Shown: positions 6,817-63,750 of the stretch, piece after piece
How positions within the stretch are numbered: position 1 is the first letter of the stretch
Layout: every line of letters starts with the position of its first letter
From: a virus
Direction: 5' to 3' (one strand)
DNA length: 64,000 nt
IMG/VR virus record: IMGVR_UViG_3300042922_000643
Coordinates: 186,001 to 250,000 of that record
Notes under the pieces: generated by a model
Databases searched by the model: none
What the model saw: the letters and a program-made list of their open reading frames with translations, nothing else
What the model was told of the DNA's origin: nothing
Program-made: the position numbers and the translations under genes

Positions 6817-8820
6817 ATGAAAAATGTTAACGTTACTGCTGCTAGTTTTGTCGTAGGTAAGAATGCGGATCTGACTGTACGTGTTGCTGAAATGGTAGAG
6901 GCAGGCGTGTTGACAGACAAAGCATTTGAAATGGCTGAGCTGGTAAAAGCAGGTATGTCTGTTGGGATCACTGTTCGTAATCCTCACAACAAGAAAGAGC
7001 ATATCGCTGAGGTCAACGAATTGGTTGGCATCCTGAATCGTATGGTTGCTGAAGATCTGGAAGTTGTTGTTGAAGAAGCTCCAAAACAAACTACAAAGAA
7101 AGAAGTGGTAGAAATGAAAACAGCTCCAATGACAAAAGAAGATATTAAGGCTCGCATCATTCACCTGGAAGGCGAAATTGTATTGGCTGAGAAACTGTTC
7201 ACAGATGGCAAACTGAAATTCGACAAAAAGACTGAACGCATCAACGCTGCGGATCGTGAGATTGATATTCTCAGACGCAAGCTGGCTGAACTGTCTGCCC
7301 CTACTGAAACAATGAGCGGTCACACTCGTACAGCAAGAGAACTGTGGGCAGACCGTCATGTCGATATCAGCGCAGGTAGTGCGACTGCTGCTCAGAACGA
7401 TCACAGTAAGGGTGCAAGAAACGCTGCATTCCGTGAAATCTCGGATCGTATTGAATATGCAAAGAATGACTATATGGCATCCCTGAAGTCCAATGATGTT
7501 GTTGTGTATGACATCGTCTACAAACAGGGTGACTATGATCGTATTGGTAACATCGTATTCCGTGTTCCTGCTGGTATGATGGAAATCAGCAAATGGACAG
7601 GTGAAAAGTATGAATGGGTATCCATGGACGATCATGACTATGATGGTACACTGCCTACTAGACGTCGTCTGATGGCTGGTTCTGGCTTCATCCGTTTGGC
7701 TATCAAGATGGATGCCAACAAAATGCCATATATCTCTTGGCCGAAGTCCAAAGGTAAAAATGAAGGTCAGTACTATGAAGTATTCAAGACAGCTGATGCT
7801 CGCTTTGACTTCTTGACTTCCGATAACAACCTGAATCTGAAAGCAGCTCTGGAAACTTTCTTGCTCACCTTCTGGGGTAAGCTAATGACTGCCAACGTTC
7901 GTAATCGTTCAGCTTTCAATGCAAGCTGCAACAATTGCAGATTCAAGACTGACCTGCCAATCTATGATGGTGTGGATGAAGAGTATGAGCACAAAGCAAA
8001 TGCTATCGACACTTCTGAGCTGGGTCAATATGGTTCCCGTATGCCACAGCTGATCTGCACCGTGCATAGCCAACTGATGGACCGTGATCTGATTGAAGAA
8101 GTGAATGAATCGGAAGCTGTGCAAGGTAAACAGTATTTCGATGAAGAAGGTAATGTTCGCTTTGCGGGTCCGAATCATGTTGTGGTTGGTGGTAAGCCTG
8201 TTGCTCTGTATAATCTGCGGAGTCAGGCTACTGTAGACACTTGCGCTGGATGCCCGTTCTACTCCAAGAACGAACGCAAACCAGACAAACGTTATGACAA
8301 GGAAGTTGAAGAAGCAGTATTCGAATACACCAAGGCTGGTGGCAAGATCGTTCGTAAAGAAGAAGATGGCCGCCTGGATCTGAAAGCTATGGGCATCTAT
8401 GTGAGCAAATACTGGACAGATCGTGCAAATGCAAACGCTCAGCCTGTATTCACGAAGACTATCGAGCATGGTAATACAAAGTGGACTCTGGGCTTCCCTG
8501 GTGAATTCGAGAACCCACAAGACTTCATGGTTATGGGTATCGGCGGTATTCGTATCTATGGTTCCCCTGATGTACTGCGTGTTGCGAAATGGGACTTCGT
8601 TCCACAAGTCGAAGCATTCCGTGCAGAAGAAGCCTCGGTTCTTAAGCTGGTTGATATCATTCACCAGACTGCAAATCAGATCACTCGTATTGATCAGGCC
8701 ACCCTGGATAACGTCATTAAGATGATCCAGACTACACCTAAGCCAGTGAAGGAACCATTGGTGACTCGTTACAACCGTGCGATCAAACGTTTGGCTGATA
8801 CGATCCGCGAAAATCAATAA
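6817..8820 (+). CDS. large hypothetical protein with paired CxxC motifs, 667 aa
   Basis: Start at ATG 6817 behind AAAGGAGA; an upstream extension to 6742 would cross the leader. Residues 1-90 form a small alpha/beta domain; about 100-165 is a coiled coil (IHLEGEIVLAEKLF, ADREIDILRRKLAEL). The large remainder contains CNNC, ICTVH and CAGC groups that could bind zinc or an Fe-S cluster. Heavy use of optimal codons (CGT, CTG, GCT, AAC), the special leader and a strong terminator suggest an abundant product. Function unknown. Confidence 0.85.
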   Translation: MKNVNVTAASFVVGKNADLTVRVAEMVEAGVLTDKAFEMAELVKAGMSVGITVRNPHNKKEHIAEVNELVGILNRMVAEDLEVVVEEAPKQTTKKEVVEMKTAPMTKEDIKARIIHLEGEIVLAEKLFTDGKLKFDKKTERINAADREIDILRRKLAELSAPTETMSGHTRTARELWADRHVDISAGSATAAQNDHSKGARNAAFREISDRIEYAKNDYMASLKSNDVVVYDIVYKQGDYDRIGNIVFRVPAGMMEISKWTGEKYEWVSMDDHDYDGTLPTRRRLMAGSGFIRLAIKMDANKMPYISWPKSKGKNEGQYYEVFKTADARFDFLTSDNNLNLKAALETFLLTFWGKLMTANVRNRSAFNASCNNCRFKTDLPIYDGVDEEYEHKANAIDTSELGQYGSRMPQLICTVHSQLMDRDLIEEVNESEAVQGKQYFDEEGNVRFAGPNHVVVGGKPVALYNLRSQATVDTCAGCPFYSKNERKPDKRYDKEVEEAVFEYTKAGGKIVRKEEDGRLDLKAMGIYVSKYWTDRANANAQPVFTKTIEHGNTKWTLGFPGEFENPQDFMVMGIGGIRIYGSPDVLRVAKWDFVPQVEAFRAEEASVLKLVDIIHQTANQITRIDQATLDNVIKMIQTTPKPVKEPLVTRYNRAIKRLADTIRENQ

Positions 8821-8926: not shown

Positions 8927-8953
8927 AATCGCCCCAAAGAGGGCCAAAGGAGA
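8927..8953 (+). promoter_or_regulatory. conserved leader with ribosome binding site, type A
   Basis: AATCGCCCCAAAGAGG, GCCAAAGGAGA: the second copy of the leader seen at 6782-6808. It places the start of the next gene at ATG 8962. Confidence 0.6.
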
Positions 8954-8961
8954 TCAATCAC

Positions 8962-10914
8962 ATGAACAAATTTTTCGCAGGCGTACAAAACGGTATCTAC
9001 ACTCAGTCCATCAAAGCTTCTGACCTGGTCAATGACAAGAAGCTGCAATCCGAGCTGGTAAGCCAAGCAATCTCTGAAGGCAAAGCATTCTCGATCACTT
9101 CGAATGATAAGCAGATGAAGACAGACGTGGCTCGTACGATGCAAAGTCAGTTCTCGGCTCGGGTTCAAGCATTGGTAGACTCTGCAATTGAACTGGAATC
9201 CACAGAGATTCTGGATCAGCTGCGTGAGGATGGCAAGATTGCCAAGGAAGTCTTTGAGTATGTAGAAGACCTGTATACCTCCCGCCTCGAAGAAATCCGC
9301 AACCCTTATGTTCCTGCTGCGGAAGTTATGATTGAAAAAGGTGTGAACCTCACCAAAGAACAAGTGCTGGCTCAAATGATGTCGATGGGTCTGATGCTGC
9401 ATGAAACTTGCATCACACCTGCTGGTGAAGGCGTAATCGTTGCGTTTGAAGCGACTGCAAGTGGCACCATTGCAGCTGTCTCCGTTGATGGTGCATCCCC
9501 ACGTCGCTATATGGCTACAAAGCTGGAAGGTCAAGGATTCCAAAACCAAACTCAAGGAGTGATTTCGATGGTAAACAAGAACGTACAATCTCAGGTGGCA
9601 ATCAGCAACGACAACAACAATACAATCAAAGGAGAAGTGAAAACAATGATGAACAACAATGTGAGTGAAGAGGCTAAGTCGATGGTAGAAAAAGCAATCC
9701 TGGGTGAAGTGTCCGAGAACATGCTGAATGACGAAGAATATGCTGAGCTGGTTGAACTGCGTTTGAACATGAGCGCTGAAGATCGTGAAGCATTGGCCGA
9801 TGCAAAGATCCAGCAAGAACTGGCTGCCTTGGCTCAGCAGGAAGATGCAGGTAAAGAAGAAGTGGCTAAGCTGGCGAACTCCGAAGCTGCTCAAGCATTC
9901 TTGGCACTGGCTGGAAGCGCACCAGCTCCAAAGGCTACTGAAGGCGAAGTTAAAGCCCCAGTAACTGGCGGAGCTCCTGTCATTGCCGCTAACCAACGCA
10001 ACAACCGTTCCAACAACACTACTCGTCAAGCTGCTGCCGCTGCTAGCCAACCACAAAACAACCAACCAAAAGGAGAAGTGAAAACAATGACAACAACTAC
10101 TAATAACAATGCAGGTAACAACAACAATGCAGGTTTCCAATCCGTACAGTCTTCCGCATTCTCGGGTGCAAATGCTGGTGCAGGCCGTTCTGCTAACACT
10201 ACACTGGAATTCGCATTCGGTGGAGCTAATACTGCTGCAACTGTACAGGGATGGGAAAACATTGAGTCCAAGCTGGCTGAAATCAACTTGGATGAATATG
10301 TAGGCCGCGGCACTAACGGTAACCAAGATTTCGTATGGTATGTACAAGAAGCTGCTAAATATGAAGGAATGATGATGGACCTGACTACTCTGCAAGAAAA
10401 CGCAATGGCTAACCCTGAGCTGGGTATCACTGCGATCAAATTCTACACTCCTGCTTCTGTTGCTGCTCTGTACAACCGTCAGCCAAACGAAAAAGACTTC
10501 ATCGTCGTTGAAGTGTTCTTCGGTCTGACTTCTTACGAGTTCACTTTCCGTCGTGGTACTTCCAACCGTGATTCCAAGCCTTACATCTACAGCAACAACA
10601 TCGCTCGTAAACAAGCTAAGAACAGCGCTAACTTCTATTGCGAATATGTTTCTTCCCGTCGTACTGACAAGCTGACTATCGTTCAACAAGCTGATGGCAC
10701 TTTCCGTGAAGCTCGTAAAGTATGGGAAAACGGCACACAAGTGATCCACACTGAAGATGCTCCATTCGCAGTTGAAGTGGGCGGCGACACTTGGGTGAAC
10801 GTAGCTCCTAACTACGGTATCAAGATTGGTCAGGCTGTATTCGTTCAAATCATGTTGCTGGTTGACGAAGTATCGGGTCTGAAAGGATTCCGCGACGCAA
10901 AAGCTAACAACTAA
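8962..10914 (+). CDS. large low-complexity-linked protein with internal start sites, 650 aa
   Basis: ATG 8962. Residues 1-200 are a helical/mixed domain, 200-230 an Asn-rich linker, 230-320 a helical domain (EYAELVELRLNMSAEDREAL), 320-400 a Pro/Ala/Asn/Thr low-complexity linker, and 410-650 a beta-rich domain (FIVVEVFFGLTSYEFTFRRG). Three in-frame ATGs with full SDs (9568, 9646, 10087) would yield 448-, 422- and 275-aa products. Codon bias is extreme in the last domain, implying very high expression. The modular layout suggests a structural or nucleic-acid-coating protein; family unknown. Confidence 0.85.
   Translation: MNKFFAGVQNGIYTQSIKASDLVNDKKLQSELVSQAISEGKAFSITSNDKQMKTDVARTMQSQFSARVQALVDSAIELESTEILDQLREDGKIAKEVFEYVEDLYTSRLEEIRNPYVPAAEVMIEKGVNLTKEQVLAQMMSMGLMLHETCITPAGEGVIVAFEATASGTIAAVSVDGASPRRYMATKLEGQGFQNQTQGVISMVNKNVQSQVAISNDNNNTIKGEVKTMMNNNVSEEAKSMVEKAILGEVSENMLNDEEYAELVELRLNMSAEDREALADAKIQQELAALAQQEDAGKEEVAKLANSEAAQAFLALAGSAPAPKATEGEVKAPVTGGAPVIAANQRNNRSNNTTRQAAAAASQPQNNQPKGEVKTMTTTTNNNAGNNNNAGFQSVQSSAFSGANAGAGRSANTTLEFAFGGANTAATVQGWENIESKLAEINLDEYVGRGTNGNQDFVWYVQEAAKYEGMMMDLTTLQENAMANPELGITAIKFYTPASVAALYNRQPNEKDFIVVEVFFGLTSYEFTFRRGTSNRDSKPYIYSNNIARKQAKNSANFYCEYVSSRRTDKLTIVQQADGTFREARKVWENGTQVIHTEDAPFAVEVGGDTWVNVAPNYGIKIGQAVFVQIMLLVDEVSGLKGFRDAKANN
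9553..9570 (+). promoter_or_regulatory. internal in-frame ribosome binding site and start 1
   Basis: CAAGGAGT 8 nt before the in-frame ATG 9568 (MVNKNVQS). The product would be 448 aa, lacking the first domain. Confidence 0.5.
9628..9648 (+). promoter_or_regulatory. internal in-frame ribosome binding site and start 2
   Basis: AAAGGAGAAGTGAAAACA directly before the in-frame ATG 9646 (MMNNNVSEE). The same 18-nt block recurs at 10069, showing duplication of a translation start inside one ORF. Confidence 0.6.
10069..10089 (+). promoter_or_regulatory. internal in-frame ribosome binding site and start 3
   Basis: AAAGGAGAAGTGAAAACA before the in-frame ATG 10087 (MTTTTNNN). The 275-aa product would be just the codon-optimised beta-rich domain. 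Confidence 0.6.
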
Positions 10915-10928
10915 TATCCATTCACCAT

Positions 10929-10959
10929 GGGGAGTCCTTCGGGGCTCCTCTTTTATTTT
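10929..10959 (+). terminator. Rho-independent terminator
   Basis: GGAGTCC-TTCG-GGGGCTCC stem-loop followed by TCTTTTATTTT, 14 nt after the stop of the 650-aa gene. Confidence 0.88.
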
Positions 10960-10974
10960 AAATTAGAGGAGACG

Positions 10975-11580
10975 ATGAAAATGATTAAACTCTTACCCAT
11001 AGCTCCAACATTAGAGATTAAAAAACCTGAAGACAAAATGCTCTCGGATATCTTTTGTGATATTCGTCAATATGTAGATAGTGAGCTCTGTGCTATTTGC
11101 TTGGTTGAGTTTAGTAGTGAATTGTCTGCGGATGGGGCGACCATTGAATTTTATAGTACAAAAGAGTCAGATGAATTGATCTACTCTCGCATCAAATTAG
11201 GTACGGGGCTCAAGGGAAATCCTGAGCTGTTAGTTATTAGCTATGCCCATGAGATAGGACATCTAGAGGATATCATTATGAATTTTGATAGCAAGTTGAA
11301 TGCTTATTCCGAGGTTTGTGGTGAACCAGGGAATCCTGAAGCTGAGCTCAGGGGAGAGGATCGGGCCTGGCTGAGATCTATCGATCTATTACACAGGCAT
11401 AAGTTTGCTCTATGGTCTTCTTTTTTGGATTGTGTCCAAAGTTCTTTGTTCACCTATGTCGAAGAAATGATGTTGTCTCGTCAAGATCAACACAGGCTTT
11501 TAACAAGTATGATGTCACGCTATCAGAAGAAAATTGATAGTTTGGTTCTTGAGCCCGAAACGAGCGAACGCGAGGCATAG
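10975..11580 (+). CDS. HExxH putative zinc metallopeptidase, 201 aa
   Basis: Start at ATG 10975 behind AGAGGAG; the reading upstream lies inside the terminator. Residues 87-97 read VISYAHEIGHL, an HExxH zinc-peptidase motif (H92, E93, H96) in a helix, as in ImmA/IrrE-type and other gluzincin-like enzymes. Acidic residues about 35 positions later (ELRGEDRAW) could supply the third ligand. No signal peptide, so cytoplasmic. Substrate unknown; proteolysis of a host or phage regulator is one possibility. Confidence 0.7.
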   Translation: MKMIKLLPIAPTLEIKKPEDKMLSDIFCDIRQYVDSELCAICLVEFSSELSADGATIEFYSTKESDELIYSRIKLGTGLKGNPELLVISYAHEIGHLEDIIMNFDSKLNAYSEVCGEPGNPEAELRGEDRAWLRSIDLLHRHKFALWSSFLDCVQSSLFTYVEEMMLSRQDQHRLLTSMMSRYQKKIDSLVLEPETSEREA

Positions 11581-42426: not shown

Positions 42427-44106
42427 ATGTCCTGGAAAAAAGTAAGTGACATCGTAAAAGACAGCCTGATTGATTTGAGGGGTGTCGAGTACAAGGTGAT
42501 CGAGAACAAACATTCCGATCTTCTTGTGGCTAAAGTCAGTAACCCTGCATTCGTACTCAGCTTAGAGACACTGATTGATATCGTTCAAAATGACGACTGG
42601 GAAGGATCGGCACATGAGATTTACGTGAAATCCGAACCCAAACCGCAGATTCCGCAATATACCGCGGCAAGAAAGCCAGGCGTTCAAGAGGACTTTGTTC
42701 ATTCAGAGATTCAATCTCGGTTTGCAGCCAAAGGCCCTTCGCTTGAAGATCAGCTGAAAGCTGCAACAGCAGGTACGACACCAGAACGCAAGGTATTTGC
42801 AACTGCCGTAGCAGGTCCAAGCCTTGAAGATCAACTCAGAGCAGCTAGAACCGAATCTGGAATCTCAGAAGTTCGTTCCCAGCTTGCTGGAGTTGGTGTC
42901 CAAGCAGCTTCGGCAGCACAGGGCGTTGCAAGGGTTGATCAGGCCGTTGAAAAGGTGGCTAAGCTCAATTCAGAACGTCACTACAACGTTCAAGGCCAGA
43001 TGTCTCGTGTAGAAGGCTCTGTTCGTAATGTCCAGAATCAGGCTACCGAGCTTAGCTGGCATGTGCAAAGCGTGCAGGACGATGTCGAAAACGTGGTGGA
43101 ACGCGTAAGTTCCTTAGAGCATCAGGCGCTCGAAGCCAGAATCAATCAAGACCTGAACACCCAAAAATCGGCGAAAGCCCAAGGAGGAAATTCTATGTCT
43201 ATCAAAAAATTGCTCGGTAACTTCACAGGTCTGTTCGGTAAGGTCGAAGGTCAGTTCGCTTATTCCCCAGCTGGTCTGGCAGTTCGTAAGAACCCTAACG
43301 AATACGGCTCCAACTGGATCGTATACGATGCTAAAACTCGCTCCCTGACTGACGTTCAAGACTTGGTTCTTGACTTCAATATCCCTGCATTCCAGCTGCC
43401 TGTCACTGAAGACGCCGTGAACGAAGGCGACATCATCCTGAACAACGGTAAATTCCAGTACGTTGTTGAGATCAATGATGGATACGTGAAAACGATCTCT
43501 CCTTCCGACAGCTCGTACAGCAGCGTTATCCCTACCCGTAACCAGTTCCTGAACAAAACGTTCTACACTACGGTGAAGACGCTTAGTCTGGCTGGCGAAG
43601 GTGGATTCGATCCGATGTTGCTGATGGCTATGAACAAAGGCGGCGACAAGCAAGATCTGCTTCCATTCCTGCTCATGAGCGGTGGACTGGGCGGTAATGG
43701 CGCAGCTGCAACTGGCGGCATTGATCCAATGATGCTGGCTCTGATCGGTGACAACACCGAAGACTTGCTTCCATTCCTGCTTCTGCAACAGGGCGGCGTG
43801 GCTGACAAAGGTATCAATCCTTTGATGCTGCTTCTGATGACTGACAAAGGCGGCGACTCGAAAGATAGCCTGCTTCCATTGCTCTTGATGGGTGGCGGTC
43901 TTGGTGGAGCTGGTGGCGCTCAAGCAGGTGGTATCCAGTCGATGCTTCCGTTCTTGCTCATGAGCGGTGATAAAGGCGGAGACAGCGGAATCAAAGACAT
44001 CTTGATGATGCAAGCACTGGGCGGTGGCGCTGGTTTCGGTAACCTCTTCGGTGGTACAGCACCAGCTGCAACTCCAGTAACTCCAGCGGCTCCAGCGGCT
44101 GAGTAA
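42427..44106 (+). CDS. modular coiled-coil protein with Leu/Met/Gly repeats, 559 aa
   Basis: ATG 42427. Residues 1-65 are a small SH3-like domain; 75-150 a linker with two SLEDQL motifs; 150-250 a coiled coil (VRNVQNQATELSWHVQSVQD). About 260-395 is a beta-rich domain, and 395-545 a repeat region. There, GGxDPMLL/INPLML segments alternate with DLLPFLLMSGG-type segments and glycine runs (at least four rounds). An in-frame SD and ATG (43195) would release the 303-aa C-terminal half alone. The repeats look like stacked hydrophobic helices with Gly linkers. Function unknown. Confidence 0.83.
   Translation: MSWKKVSDIVKDSLIDLRGVEYKVIENKHSDLLVAKVSNPAFVLSLETLIDIVQNDDWEGSAHEIYVKSEPKPQIPQYTAARKPGVQEDFVHSEIQSRFAAKGPSLEDQLKAATAGTTPERKVFATAVAGPSLEDQLRAARTESGISEVRSQLAGVGVQAASAAQGVARVDQAVEKVAKLNSERHYNVQGQMSRVEGSVRNVQNQATELSWHVQSVQDDVENVVERVSSLEHQALEARINQDLNTQKSAKAQGGNSMSIKKLLGNFTGLFGKVEGQFAYSPAGLAVRKNPNEYGSNWIVYDAKTRSLTDVQDLVLDFNIPAFQLPVTEDAVNEGDIILNNGKFQYVVEINDGYVKTISPSDSSYSSVIPTRNQFLNKTFYTTVKTLSLAGEGGFDPMLLMAMNKGGDKQDLLPFLLMSGGLGGNGAAATGGIDPMMLALIGDNTEDLLPFLLLQQGGVADKGINPLMLLLMTDKGGDSKDSLLPLLLMGGGLGGAGGAQAGGIQSMLPFLLMSGDKGGDSGIKDILMMQALGGGAGFGNLFGGTAPAATPVTPAAPAAE
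43181..43197 (+). promoter_or_regulatory. internal in-frame ribosome binding site and start
   Basis: AAGGAGGAAATTCT before in-frame ATG 43195. Codon bias becomes strongly optimal downstream, as in the 10087 case, supporting use of this start. Confidence 0.65.
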
Positions 44107-44473: not shown

Positions 44474-44839
44474 ATGGCACGCACAGTACACTACGGAACT
44501 AACAAACCTTTCACTATCTTCGACGACAAACTTTCTATCGAAGACATCAAGAAGACTATGGCCGATTATTTCCCTGAAGTTGCAAACGCTACGGCACGCG
44601 TCGAAGGCGACAACATTTACCTGGAAGTGAAGGCTGGTACGAAAGGTTCGGGACCACGTACTGTTCATTACGGCACTAACAAGCCGTTCACAATCTTTGA
44701 CGAAAAGCTGTCGATTGAAGACATCAAGAAAACCATGGCTGACTACTTCCCTGAAGTAGCAAACGCCAGCGCTCGGGTTGAAGGTAACAACATCTACCTG
44801 GAAGTGAAAGCAGGCACTAAAGGCCTGATCTTGGCCTAA
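44474..44839 (+). CDS. tandem ubiquitin-like protein, PRTRC system protein C type, 121 aa
   Basis: ATG 44474. Two units of about 55 residues (4-58 and 63-117), each TVHYGTNKPFTIFD, SIEDIKKTMADYFPEVANA, NIYLEVKAGTKG. The layout FxYNG..L.DP..S...V...YA..YPEL..A...Y.F....GTKG is that of PRTRC protein C, a predicted beta-grasp ubiquitin-like protein. The units differ at only three residues although many synonymous sites differ. Unit 1 ends GTKG then a SGPR linker; unit 2 ends GTKG then LILA, so both need proteolytic exposure of glycine. Heads the E2/JAB/E1 genes. Confidence 0.85.
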   Translation: MARTVHYGTNKPFTIFDDKLSIEDIKKTMADYFPEVANATARVEGDNIYLEVKAGTKGSGPRTVHYGTNKPFTIFDEKLSIEDIKKTMADYFPEVANASARVEGNNIYLEVKAGTKGLILA

Positions 44840-58721: not shown

Positions 58722-58795
58722 ACAAGATTAACTCAGTTGGTAGAGTAGCCGCCATTATTGGAGGTCAGTCGCAGGTTCAAGTCCTGCATCTTGAA
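58722..58795 (+). tRNA. tRNA-like gene 1, isotype uncertain
   Basis: Acceptor ACAAGAT/ATCTTGA (6 of 7 pairs), D arm ACTC-AGTTGGTA-GAGT and T arm GCAGG-TTCAAGT-CCTGC are canonical. The anticodon arm is odd: CCGCC/GGAGG with one mismatch leaves a 6-nt loop ATTATT, or an 8-nt loop if the top pair is open. No clear anticodon can be read. CCA is not encoded. Confidence 0.55.
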
Positions 58796-58821: not shown

Positions 58822-58893
58822 GCAGGTATAGCTCAGAGGTAGAGCGGGGCCAGGTTGCTGGTCATGTCGCGGGTTCGATCCCCGTTATCCGTG
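58822..58893 (+). tRNA. tRNA-like gene 2, isotype uncertain
   Basis: Acceptor GCAGGTA/TATCCGT (one mismatch), D arm GCTC-AGAGGTA-GAGC, T arm GCGGG-TTCGATC-CCCGT. The anticodon stem GGCCA/TGGTC leaves a 6-nt loop GGTTGC, the same irregularity as its neighbour. CCA not encoded. Confidence 0.55.
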
Positions 58894-59717: not shown

Positions 59718-59770
59718 CAAAATAATATGATATCATGAGCTTATCTAGGGAAAAGGAAGTGATAGTTTAC

Positions 59771-62348
59771 GTGACCTCGACGCAAGATTTATCTTTAGCC
59801 GCTGCGAAAGAAGAGCGGGGAGTCAGTTCACAACGCTTTACGCATCTTCATCTGCACACACCAGGTAGTTTGCTAGATGGATTTTGTCGTATAGCTGATC
59901 TAGTAAAACTCGCTAAAGAATTTGGTATGGACGCCGTGGGTATTAGTGACCATGGAAATTGCCATTCTCATGTCGAGTTTTTTCAAGCTTGTAAAGAAGC
60001 AGGAATTAAACCAATTATGGGTATGGAAGGTTATATTACGCCTCACCGTAGTTGGAAAAAACCTGAGTTTACAGCCAAGCATTACAAAAAGCTTTCCTAT
60101 CGTTATCGCACTAAAGCAGAGATGCAAGAAGACGGCGCGGAACAAATCGTTATGGATGGCAAGAATCTCGTTCCTAATGAGATCATTGATGCCTATCTCC
60201 GTAGTGAATTGGCAAGCCTAAACCGTTTGATTAAAGATGAGAGAGAAAACGGTAATGATCCAGAGCTGTTGAAGGATTTGTACGCGGCCAAGGATGATAC
60301 TCGTATCTCAATCAATGCTTTGATCAGCTCAGGAGATCTTATTTATTCAGCGGTTCCTTCTCTAGCGACAGCAAATCTTTTTGAAATGCGGCCGAAGACG
60401 GCACATCTTTTAATGATTGCACGAACGAACGAAGGATATCAGAATCTGCTTAAAATCACCAGTATTGCTCAGCTTGAGGGTGTTTATTACAAACCACGTG
60501 CTGATTATAAGTTAATTAAACAGTATGGGAAAGGCATCATTGCTACTAGTGCGTGTCTTGGCGGAGAAATCCCTCAGCTTATTCGTAAAGGGAAAGAAAG
60601 ACTCGCTAAGAACATTGCACGGTTTTACCAAAGCTGCTTCGATGAGTTTTACTTTGAGCTACAACCAAGCCATTTGGAAGAGCAACACTATGTAAATGAA
60701 GTCCTGATCCGCTGGAGCGAAGAAATGGATATTCCGCTCGTTGCGACTTCAGATGCTCATATGCTGCGTCCAGAAGACCTGCCTATTCACTCCGCATTAA
60801 CCAAGATTGGTAAAGCCCAAGATGATGCGGATATCAACGTTTATGAAAGCTGTTACTTCAAAAGCGCAGATGAAATGCTAGAAGGCGGAATGCCTGTAAT
60901 TGCACTAGAGAATGCGTATCTCATTTCTCAGAAGTGTAATGTTGAGCTTCCCCTCGGTAGAATTCACCTGCCTAGATTCACAGTTCCACCCGAGTATACA
61001 TCAGACACCTACCTTTTAGAGCTTACAGACAATGCTTTGTTCCAGATGGCGCTCGAAAAGGATATTGATATCACCGTATATAAAGATCGTTTGAAGGAAG
61101 AACTTCTCGTTATCTTCGAGAAAGGATTTTCTGATTACTTTCTTATCGTTTGGGACTATATTGCTTTTGCGCGGCGTCAAGGCATTCTAGTAGGACCAGG
61201 CCGCGGTAGTGCAGGAGGTTCTCTTGTTGCCTATCTGCTGAAAATCACCAATATTGACCCTATCAAGTATGATCTTCTCTTCGAACGGTTCCTTGACCCT
61301 TCGCGTATGGACTTGCCCGATATTGACAGTGACTTTGATTATGTACGAAGACACGAGGTTGTTGAATATATCGCTGGAAAATATGGTCAAGATCATGTAG
61401 CTCAAGTTATTACATTCGGGTCTCTATCTTCAAAAGCGGCATTCAAAGACGTGGGCCGTATTTTAGGTATTGACCATAATATTATTAACACAATGAATAA
61501 ACTAATTCCTGTTGTCTTTGGAAAGCCTTATGGCATTGACAAGGCCTTAGAAGAAGTCGAAGAATTAAGGGAGTATGAAAGACGCTATCCTGAAATGTTC
61601 GATCTTGCTCGAAAAGTTCATTCCCTGCCTCGGTCTACAGGTATTCATGCTTGTGCTCTTGTTATTACACCAGAGCCTATTGAGGAAATGGTACCCTTGA
61701 TCAAGGGAAAAGCAGGAGAAATCGTTACCCAGTACGACGGCCCTACATTAGCGGAACAGTACGGTATCCTCAAGGTTGACTTGTTGGGACTGAAAAACCT
61801 ATCTGTCATTGATATCGCCCGTAAGCTTGTCCTAGAGCGATATGACCGCGATATCGATCCTGATACATTAGAGTTTGATGATCCGCGCGTATTCAAGACT
61901 ATTCAACAGGGGCACACGGCGGGGCTCTTCCAAATTGAGAGCAGCGGGATGACCAAAATGTTTCAAAGTCTAAACCGCGTTACATTCGATGACCTTGTAG
62001 CAGGAATAGCTTTATACCGTCCAGGCCCAATGCAGCATATTCCCGACTACTGTGCTCGTGCAAATGGATACACAGAGGTAACTTATCCATGTGAAGAACT
62101 GCGTCCTGTGCTAGAAAAAACGCATGGTATTGCCGTCTATCAAGAATCTATCATGGCAATGTCCAGAGTTATGGCGGGATACACAAAAGCTGAGACTACT
62201 AAGCTGCGTAAAGCGATTTCCAAGAAAAAAGAAGAGGTTATGCGTCCAGCCTTGGATGAGCTTTTCAAACGAGTCACGATGAATGGCCACTCGGAAGAAT
62301 TGGCAAAGAAAATCATCGACATCATCGAGCCTTTCGTAGGCTATGCGT
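59771..62348 (+). CDS. dnaE: DNA polymerase III alpha subunit (DnaE-type), exon 1
   Basis: Start placed at GTG 59771, 7-10 nt after AAGGAAGTGAT, a near-perfect SD; ATG 59735 is in frame but has no SD. PHP domain at the N-terminus (FTHLHLHTPGSLLDGF, GISDHGNCHSHVEF, MGMEGYI). The polymerase domain has GPGRGSAGGSLVAYLL and the catalytic PDIDSDF near residue 517, plus KVDLLGLKNLSVID. The exon ends at T62348 in the codon for F of the universally conserved GY-x-FNKSHS motif. Joined to exon 2 it encodes a full-length replicase of about 1169 aa. Confidence 0.93.
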
Positions 62349-62818
62349 TAATAGATGAACGGAAGTGTTCATGAGCGCCCTTGGCGAGCAATCGCCATTG
62401 AATAACTAGGTGAATTTAGGGGAGTCCTGGAGCAACAGTCGTGAGACAGATGTATGGTGACCCTAAGCGAAGTTTTGTGTAGATGGTGGCGGAATAGGTA
62501 GACGATAGGTCGGCTTAGTAGGTTTGGGTTGTGGTTCGAATCCACGATGCGCAATACGCGTAGACGCCGTGACGGTAAAAACCTGGCTATGTGAGGTGCA
62601 AATCCTCACCCACTATACAAAAAACGTTCAACGACTATTCTTGAAATGGCCATGAGAATTGGCAACAGAAGTAGGGCCTATGCTTATAAAGATAGGCGGG
62701 TGAGAGTCCCTTAATCCGAAGCGCCTAGCATCCTCAGAACTTTGGGGATGGTGATATAGTCTACTCCCTCTCTGCTCGACAGAGAATTCAAAATATGGGG
62801 AAACCCAGGGTGAGATGG
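62349..62818 (+). ncRNA. group I intron in dnaE, 470 nt
   Basis: Interrupts the frame exactly between GYA and FNKSHS; removing 62349-62818 restores TTT-AAC-AAA. The 5' exon ends in T and the intron ends in G, as required. P1: GCGT (62345-62348) with GCGC (62375-62378), giving the U-G splice pair. Conserved R element GTTCAACGACTA (62626-62637) and S element GATATAGTC (62753-62761) form P7 (GACTA/TAGTC). No homing endonuclease ORF, so probably immobile or mobilised in trans. Splicing regulates replicase synthesis. Confidence 0.9.
62477..62620 (+). other. tRNA-Leu-like insertion in the intron P6 region
   Basis: GTGTAG...CTATAC closes a 140-nt extension. Inside are TGGCGGAATAGGTAGACG (typical leucine tRNA D arm), a T arm TTGTGG-TTCGAAT-CCACGA and a second T-arm-like GTGAGG-TGCAAAT-CCTCAC. 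GTAGACG occurs twice as a direct repeat. Could be a decayed tRNA captured by the intron. Confidence 0.4.
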
Positions 62819-63750
62819 TTAACAAATCCCACAGTGTAGCATATGCTATCGTCTGCTACATGACCGCTTACTTTAAAACATATTACCCTTTGGAGTTTAT
62901 GGCGGCGTTGTTAACAGTATTTGGTAGTAATGTTAAGAAAGCAGTCCCTTATATCGCTGAATGCAAACGTATGGGATTCGAAGTATTGCCACCCGATGTA
63001 AACAAATCGGGATACGGTTTCGTAATCGAAGGCACAAATCTTCGTTTTGGCTTGAACAGCTTAAAAGGTCTTGGTGAAGTTGCGCTTGAACGCATTATAG
63101 AAGAGCGTCCTTTTGTAGATCTGGAAGATGCGATCAAACGAGTTCCGAAGAAGTTCTTGAACAAACGCGTCGTCGATGTGCTTAGCCTTTGCGGAGCCTT
63201 TGATGATCTTGCGAATGAAAAGAATCGGATGAAAATCGTTGAGAAAGCATATAAACTTCGTGGAGAGAAGAAATTTGATCTCACAAGTTTTATTGAAAAC
63301 TTCGATCAAAAGGCTAAGCTTGATCATGAGAAAGCTATTCTAGGCGTCTACGTCAGTGGTCACCCACTAGATGGCTACGCTACCGCTGTCGGGCCTTGGC
63401 TTGAAAAGTCTGAAGGGGATCGATTCGATACCGCGGGAATTATTGCCGAATTCAACGTGATTAAAACCAAGAAAGGTGATGAAATGGCCTTTGTAGATTT
63501 GGATACTATCGAAGGTCTGCAAACTATTGTCATCTTCCCTCAGCAGTATTCGTCCATTCGTGGCCAGCTTGTTGAGGAACTGATCATGAAGATTACGGTT
63601 CAAGTCGAATACAATGCTGTGCGCGGCGAACGTAATTACATCGCCAAGAAGATCACGATTCCGAAGAAGATCAATAAGGGACTTTATATCCCGAAAGCTG
63701 CTTTGGAAGAAGAAGACACTACCAGTGAATATGAACAATGGGCACAATAG
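62819..63750 (+). CDS. dnaE: DNA polymerase III alpha subunit (DnaE-type), exon 2
   Basis: Continues from the spliced F codon: NKSHSVAYAIVCYMTAYF and YYPLEFMAALLT, then the tandem helix-hairpin-helix region (LRFGLNSLKGLGEVALERII) and a C-terminal OB-fold region (IIAEFNVIKTKKGDEMAFVD). A false start (ATG 62815) exists inside the intron, but without splicing it would lack the polymerase active site. Ends in an acidic EEEDTTSEYEQWAQ. Confidence 0.92.

Follow-up and report, generated by a model that had tools for sequence, protein, structure and literature searches.

Putative internal start sites in the gp276-like gene

How many proteins does a phage gene encode when its open reading frame (ORF) holds further ribosome-binding sites, each followed by a start codon in frame? 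The question is raised by a long ORF in the 64,000-nucleotide stretch analysed here (the window), which corresponds to positions 186001 to 250000 of an IMG/VR virus record of 251,543 bp (251.5 kb; G000). The capsid gene of this phage, located outside the window, shares 70% identity with the capsid gene of Bacillus phage vB_BauM_KLEB27-3 (KLEB27-3), of which gp276 is the counterpart of the ORF. As read off the sequence, the ORF is preceded by the ribosome-binding site AAAGGAG at 8946 to 8952 and contains three internal units of an SD and an ATG.

8962..10914, + strand: gp276-like ORF, 650 aa, open frame from ATG to TAA
9554..9570, + strand: SD AAGGAG (9554-9559) and ATG 9568 (codon 203), which would give 448 aa
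9628..9648, + strand: first copy of a 21-mer, SD AAAGGAG (9628-9634) and ATG 9646 (codon 229), start A, which would give 422 aa
10069..10089, + strand: second copy of the 21-mer, SD AAAGGAG (10069-10075) and ATG 10087 (codon 376), start C, which would give 275 aa

All three internal ATGs are in frame with the ORF. The initial annotation had proposed three in-frame units, the last two being exact copies, and both statements hold, the positions it gave being those at which the SD units begin. The 21-mer AAAGGAGAAGTGAAAACAATG occurs exactly twice in the window and likewise twice in the whole record, with no further copy at up to three mismatches in either of them or in 100 shuffles, and both copies encode an identical peptide in the window gene (KGEVKTM). 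By eye, a degenerate likeness of KGEVKTMT, EGEVKAPV, is found at window positions 9940 to 9963, without SD or start codon. It is possibly a decayed start unit, and it stands roughly where the relatives G001 and G017, described below, have a start named B here. Separate cistrons coupled in translation were rejected as an explanation of the ORF, since coupling needs an upstream stop near the internal start and the frame is open through all three starts.

Relatives of the gene pair in four lineages

No relatives of the 650-aa protein came from tblastn against phages or from peptide patterns run on viral_contigs. They were reached via the gene directly upstream of the ORF and via kin of the capsid gene.

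6817..8820, + strand: upstream neighbour (gp277-like), 667 aa, 31.6% identical to KLEB27-3 gp277 (E 1e-63)

In KLEB27-3, gp276 adjoins gp277 and is matched by the window protein at 2e-06 (blastp). Capsid-based searches led to a 43,959-bp IMG/VR contig with a gp277/gp276-like pair (G001) and to G017, five records which are 100% identical over 5.2 to 6.7 kb and are therefore counted as one lineage. The pair is present in four lineages, i.e., our own phage, KLEB27-3, and these two IMG/VR lineages, and in alignments the gp276-like relatives share 18 to 28% identity with the window protein. An assembly error behind the long frame was rejected, because the frame is common to all four.

The gp277 family was matched once in a set of nine records (G001) and, among the matches listed, six times in a set of 37, of which five were kept, and a search of the same 37 records with the gp276 family listed the same five matches. 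For this set we took those records underlying the listed capsid-kin loci that measure about 26 kb or more, three bacterial genomes included, except for L037 (52 kb). The match that was dropped, G014 (E 9e-4), is a Glu/Val-rich ORF with no likeness by eye. Peptide and DNA patterns for the gp277-like gene yielded no new lineage (three contigs without a family match, and G001 again), and no match was obtained with a four-row profile on 22 records including Moorella phage MTATph1 or with a three-row profile on MTATph1 alone. Among the matches listed, many capsid relatives in the 37- and 22-record searches had no copy of the gp277/gp276-like genes.

Recurrence of the internal starts

A contiguous-SD scan identified in all four lineages an in-frame start A before the motif S-x-AA-x-x-FL and an in-frame start C before the C-terminal domain. 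Two lineages have, in addition, a strong start B between them.

Start A: ATG 9646 in the window gene; ATG 10304 in KLEB27-3 (GAGGGAGAGAATGAAATG); ATG 4265 in G001 (AAGGGAGAGAACAAAACTATG); ATG 3863 in G017 (AAGGAGATGGAATTAATG)
Start B: GTG 4406 in G001, behind AAAGGAGG; ATG 4013 in G017, behind AAGGAGG
Start C: ATG 10087 in the window gene; GTG 10439 in KLEB27-3 (AAGGGAGCGAATAAAGTG); ATG 4478 in G001 (AAGGGAGCTGTTAAAATG); ATG 4139 in G017 (AAGGTGGAAACTGAAATG)

Start A lies 11 to 78 residues ahead of the motif, and start C lies 34 to 69 residues past it and 43 to 83 residues ahead of the WY of the C-terminal domain. The equivalence of A and C across lineages is one of module order, which a global-alignment control does not confirm; by this order both occupy the same relative position in 4/4 lineages, while ATG 9568 is present in 1/4, with no counterpart seen in the three relatives. 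We defined as strict any site at least 30 codons inside a gene where an in-frame ATG or GTG has AAGGAG, AGGAGG, or GGAGGT at 5 to 12 nt. Only three of the eight A and C sites satisfy this rule (own A, own C, and A of G017). The remaining five have weaker SDs of the GGGAG or AGGTG type, KLEB27-3 gp276 being without a strict site; the GGGAG type is also what precedes gp277 of KLEB27-3 at its annotated start (AAGGGAG).

The gp277-like genes of three of the four lineages carry a strict SD-start at a position that coincides in the alignment, with ATG in two of them and GTG in one. This strong site is missing from the window's own gp277-like gene, for which we list a weak candidate lying about 60 alignment columns from the relatives' site and failing the contiguous-SD scan.

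Aligned starts of the relatives: ATG 7863 (AGGAGG); GTG 1624 (AGGAGGT); ATG 1368 (AAAGGAGG)
7114..7116, + strand: weak candidate internal ATG of the window's gp277-like gene (codon 100), p_syn 0.30

That all Val starts are GTG was set aside as evidence because the scans covered ATG, GTG, and TTG only; the one Val at an aligned site, in the gp277-like gene of G001, is free of this start-codon bias.

Internal starts compared with chance

Genes were called piecewise by a simple rule of ORF and codon score, by which small genes are missed, giving 167 genes in G000 and 195 in KLEB27-3. A loose SD threshold produced 298 in-frame matches in G000, and the strict six-base rule was used instead. It returned 8 sites in 166 genes of G000, versus 15.2 (sd 3.7) expected from synonymous-codon shuffles, and 8 in the 195 genes of KLEB27-3, versus 14.8 (sd 3.6). 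As the shuffles exceed the observed counts in both phages, strict internal SD-starts are avoided genome-wide in both. This agrees with PMC5100845, which reports SD depletion for highly expressed genes. Three of the eight sites of G000 fall in ORF 8962-10914, and two of the eight of KLEB27-3 fall in gp277, the relative of the gene directly upstream of this ORF. Shuffling codon order yields 0.19 sites for this ORF (P=0.0025) and shuffling synonymous codons 0.62 (P=0.025), as against the three observed, so that in-frame internal starts with a ribosome-binding site are clearly above the background of the gene. The eight whole gp276- and gp277-like genes of the four lineages contain ten strict sites (gp276-like: own 3, G001 1, G017 2, KLEB27-3 0; gp277-like: own 0, KLEB27-3 2, G001 1, G017 1), versus 1.66 by codon-order shuffle, with a maximum of 8 in 2000 (P=0.0005). 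When the count is limited to linkers, the ten sites stand against 0.70, the linker windows having been picked after the sites were seen. A strict global-alignment control flagged one of 75 orthologous pairs, a tail-fibre gene; the gp276- and gp277-like genes were not flagged because their linkers do not align.

The encoded amino acids also contribute to these signals. In a per-site synonymous test of 15 sites, single sites gave values of 0.08 to 0.57 (Fisher p=0.012); since the per-site tests are weak, much of the SD likeness is accounted for by the choice of Lys, Gly, and Glu residues. The repeated KGEVKTM could then be a signal at the protein level, e.g., a cleavage or docking motif between domains, with the look of an SD and ATG as a by-product of the codons for Lys-Gly-Glu...Met, an explanation which is also favoured by both copies giving one peptide in the window gene and by a protein of the presumed HExxH type being encoded next door. 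We deem it unlikely, since the corresponding peptides of the relatives vary (KGENKTM, EGENEM, NEKGANKV, NEKVETEM, QEEEVTM, TEEVIEV) whereas SD, spacing, and start codon (ATG or GTG) stay despite the change, and since synonymous shuffles, which preserve the peptides, give 3.31 strict sites versus the ten observed (P=0.001).

The internal SDs might instead be pause sites which aid the folding of the protein module by module, without any initiation, and their position in linkers ahead of modules predicted by a low-confidence model would suit such a role. Pausing, however, does not need a start codon at 5 to 12 nt, and there is one at each site (the scans required it); moreover, passages of PMC5100845 describe SDs inside coding regions as avoided and depleted in highly expressed genes. 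We regard pausing as highly improbable. RNA structure at the 15 sites is weak (mean percentile 0.90 in 50-nt folds), as would in part be expected of A-rich linkers.

Codon bias and protein modules

The initial annotation had described a codon bias increasing stepwise. The codon adaptation index (CAI) calculated against three structural genes does rise along the gene, in three levels and not in four, with 0.727 for codons 1 to 202, 0.761 for 203 to 228, 0.757 for 229 to 375, and 0.836 for 376 to 650, and the difference between the last and the first third ranks second among the 40 genes with 400 codons or more. The rise is weak in KLEB27-3 (rank 4 of 36) and absent in G001 and G017, where the capsid gene was the sole reference; we rejected the trend as general evidence because these two relatives do not show it. 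Against the capsid gene as reference, the ORF ranks 2 of 167 and its gp277-like partner 4 of 167, and in KLEB27-3 gp276 and gp277 rank 22 and 16 of 195. At the rank of the window ORF, PMC5100845 would lead one to expect fewer internal SDs. The capsid-like bias of the window gene, together with the rise toward its C-terminal end, is in keeping with a protein that is abundant and has short forms in excess.

The starts were also said to match domain boundaries. In the AlphaFold model of the 650-aa protein, all three fall within stretches predicted as coil (about 142 to 235 and 318 to 413), and since the model is poor (mean pLDDT of 36.8; the structure models had 36.8 and 40.7), it gives the proposed match a faint hint. 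Searches of the proteins of this finding against Pfam, PHROGs, and PDB sequences gave no convincing match. The C-terminal module matches in five of six lineage pairs (E 7e-03 to 3e-31), the exception being our own phage versus G017. The N-terminal module of our own phage has no convincing match in the other lineages (best blastp E 0.038), that of KLEB27-3 weakly matches G001 (8e-05) and G017 (3e-07), and the N-terminal module of KLEB27-3 gp277 shows a weak match to an Arc-like repressor (5.8e-05).

A second gene with a nested start

The first of the two readings offered in the initial annotation, namely that formerly separate cistrons were fused by loss of stops, is demonstrated for ORF 8962-10914 by none of its relatives, as no relative with separate cistrons was found among them; a comparable state is visible for another gene of the window.

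42427..44106, + strand: second gene with a nested start, in-frame AAGGAGG at 43181-43187 and ATG 43195 (codon 257)
Relatives: L129:1117-2157, L131, L132; stand-alone L130

The C-terminal module of this gene is related to gp39 of Bacillus phage G from the internal codon 129 of gp39, an in-frame SD-ATG (AAAAGGAGAATTCTACAATG) at which the homology begins. In the G012/G017 lineage the module follows the in-frame SD-ATG CGGAGGTAATGGAACTATG at codon 320 of an open frame, and in MT839702 it follows AAGGAGAAAAAGGCTATG, again in frame. In MT835469, instead, it is a stand-alone gene, with an in-frame TAA between its AGGAGG and its ATG. The module is therefore alone in one record and fused in four others, with an SD-ATG at its beginning each time. 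C-terminal modules match in nine of ten pairs (E 8e-11 to 2e-65; no match was listed for G012 versus MT835469), and each match sets in no more than 10 residues from the internal start. Among N-terminal modules, that of our own phage versus G012 is the sole match, a weak one (E 0.002), and those of phage G and MT839702 have none within the five-record set. The four fused genes have four strict sites versus 0.93 (P=0.022) and 1.73 (P=0.07).

A fusion that kept its ribosome-binding site can, from these comparisons, be seen only for gene 42427-44106, and for ORF 8962-10914 such an origin is plausible by analogy with it. With fusion made plausible by this second family, the internal sites of the ORF might be mere leftovers, i.e., old ribosome-binding sites of the fused genes, unused and decaying, as the weak SDs at several sites of the relatives and the degenerate EGEVKAPV, which could be a decayed unit, would allow. 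Such decay is very unlikely in our judgement, given that the sites recur in four lineages at 18 to 28% identity despite the genome-wide depletion of strict sites.

Comparison with known nested genes

In tailed phages, nesting of prohead protease and scaffold is exemplified by lambda C/Nu3, where an in-frame start within a gene of the capsid region gives a C-coterminal second product. Our strict scan recovers this arrangement in KLEB27-3 (gp014, SD-GTG at codon 256), and internal starts of the prohead protease genes in both phages fit protease/scaffold nesting.

L010:7711-9201, - strand: prohead protease gene of our own phage, AGGAG-ATG at codon 237 of the called ORF, below the strict rule
L016:12993-14399: prohead protease gene of KLEB27-3, strict SD-GTG at codon 256

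Both starts precede a Glu/Lys-rich, coiled-coil-like tail. ORF 8962-10914 has the in-frame internal start and the C-coterminal product in common with these genes; unlike it, the prohead protease gene of our own phage lies elsewhere in the record, and the searches run, Pfam included, showed no protease or capsid likeness of the ORF. Bacillus phage G gp39 has an in-frame internal SD-ATG as well, but its protein family differs from the gp276-like one and has a stand-alone relative (MT835469), whereas none is known for the gp276-like gene.

Passages of PMC9430671 report in-frame internal starts proven by experiment in phage endolysins, where in some cases the long and short forms build one enzyme complex. 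Such two-polypeptide endolysins, as described there, resemble ORF 8962-10914 in having one gene, an in-frame internal ribosome-binding site and start, a shared stop, and a C-terminal product; they differ in having one internal start rather than three, and in our case the neighbour possesses the device in three of four lineages. No match of note to catalytic or cell-wall-binding domains of endolysins was obtained with our protein in Pfam, PHROGs, or PDB sequences. Among the open-access titles and abstracts listed on nested or internally started phage genes, the endolysin work alone is closely related, and an open-access search for KLEB27-3 found no paper. The kind of mechanism is already known in phages; as far as we searched, the novelty lies in the gene pair, in how many starts there are, in their persistence, and in the differing N-terminal modules.

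Other features of the window

The next gene downstream of the ORF (10927-11580) encodes a HEIGH motif, and neighbouring genes in KLEB27-3 and G001 encode HELGH. By this motif we take these proteins to be HExxH metallopeptidase-like; the protein of 10927-11580 had no significant match in Pfam.

Region 44474-44839 contains two copies of a tandem repeat (about 57 aa, with KAG-T/V-KG at the end), of which there are four in KLEB27-3 gp199 (L019:22930-23637) and five or more in the G012 lineage (L132). The vicinity also includes 49836-50798, a ThiF gene (Pfam 1.2e-12), and 48413-49789, with a weak JAB match that falls short of the Pfam cut-off (0.002). In KLEB27-3, proteins annotated as belonging to the ThiF family and as having a PRTRC_A domain are encoded near gp199. 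The repeats and their neighbours look like a poly-ubiquitin-like precursor with its processing and activating enzymes; tandem ubiquitin-like repeats are described in prokaryotes in part of PMC1779556.

The DNA polymerase III alpha gene is in two parts (59735-62374 and 62815-63750) with a group I intron match between them (62357-62786; Rfam, 50.1 bits). The polymerase gene of KLEB27-3 is likewise in two parts, with a gene for an HNH endonuclease in between. The window further encodes an RNA ligase and a SpoVS-like gene (1536-1799; Pfam SpoVS 1.4e-30), also present as KLEB27-3 gp291. Rfam matches indicate two tRNAs, at 58722-58795 and 58822-58893, of which ARAGORN finds only the former and assigns it no amino acid.

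Proposed mechanism and implications

What the sequences display directly are the signals, the frame, their genome-wide rarity, and their reappearance at the same module boundaries of the other three lineages as well as, in those three, in the gene next door. We consider it quite probable that programmed internal initiation yields nested C-coterminal proteins of 650, 448, 422, and 275 aa, and the nested products suggested in the initial annotation find good support in the comparison, with the A and C boundaries in 4/4 lineages and the start of the neighbour in 3/4. Ribosomes starting at ATG 8962 would make the 650-aa form, while others, binding to internal SDs within linkers of low complexity, would initiate at the in-frame ATGs 9568, 9646, and 10087 and yield the three shorter forms, all with the same C-terminal domain. 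We infer that all forms are synthesized and co-assemble, so that some long subunits would carry N-terminal modules on an abundant short-form oligomer, as modelled on the hetero-oligomeric two-polypeptide endolysins. The ORF may have arisen by fusion of cistrons which kept their ribosome-binding sites, as gene 42427-44106 leads us to suppose.

Tentatively, and with somewhat less than even confidence, we propose that giant phages infecting Bacillus-like hosts use such fusion generally to build complexes: a stop between neighbouring cistrons would be lost and the downstream ribosome-binding site kept, so that a single mRNA would set the ratio of bare to module-bearing core subunits, and modules could be exchanged while the internal start stays. 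If this holds true, 36 kb would contain three cases, namely ORF 8962-10914, its partner, and the gp39-like gene 42427-44106. The relatives of the last would include stand-alone, fused, and module-swapped forms, and this family has members in the separate as well as in the nested state. Gene finders assign one protein to each ORF, and the four lineages argue that here one ORF stands for several. Internal SD-starts kept against a genome-wide depletion may, as these genes suggest, flag nested genes from sequence alone, and ORF 8962-10914 offers a concrete, testable case in which phages may set subunit ratios without extra genes.
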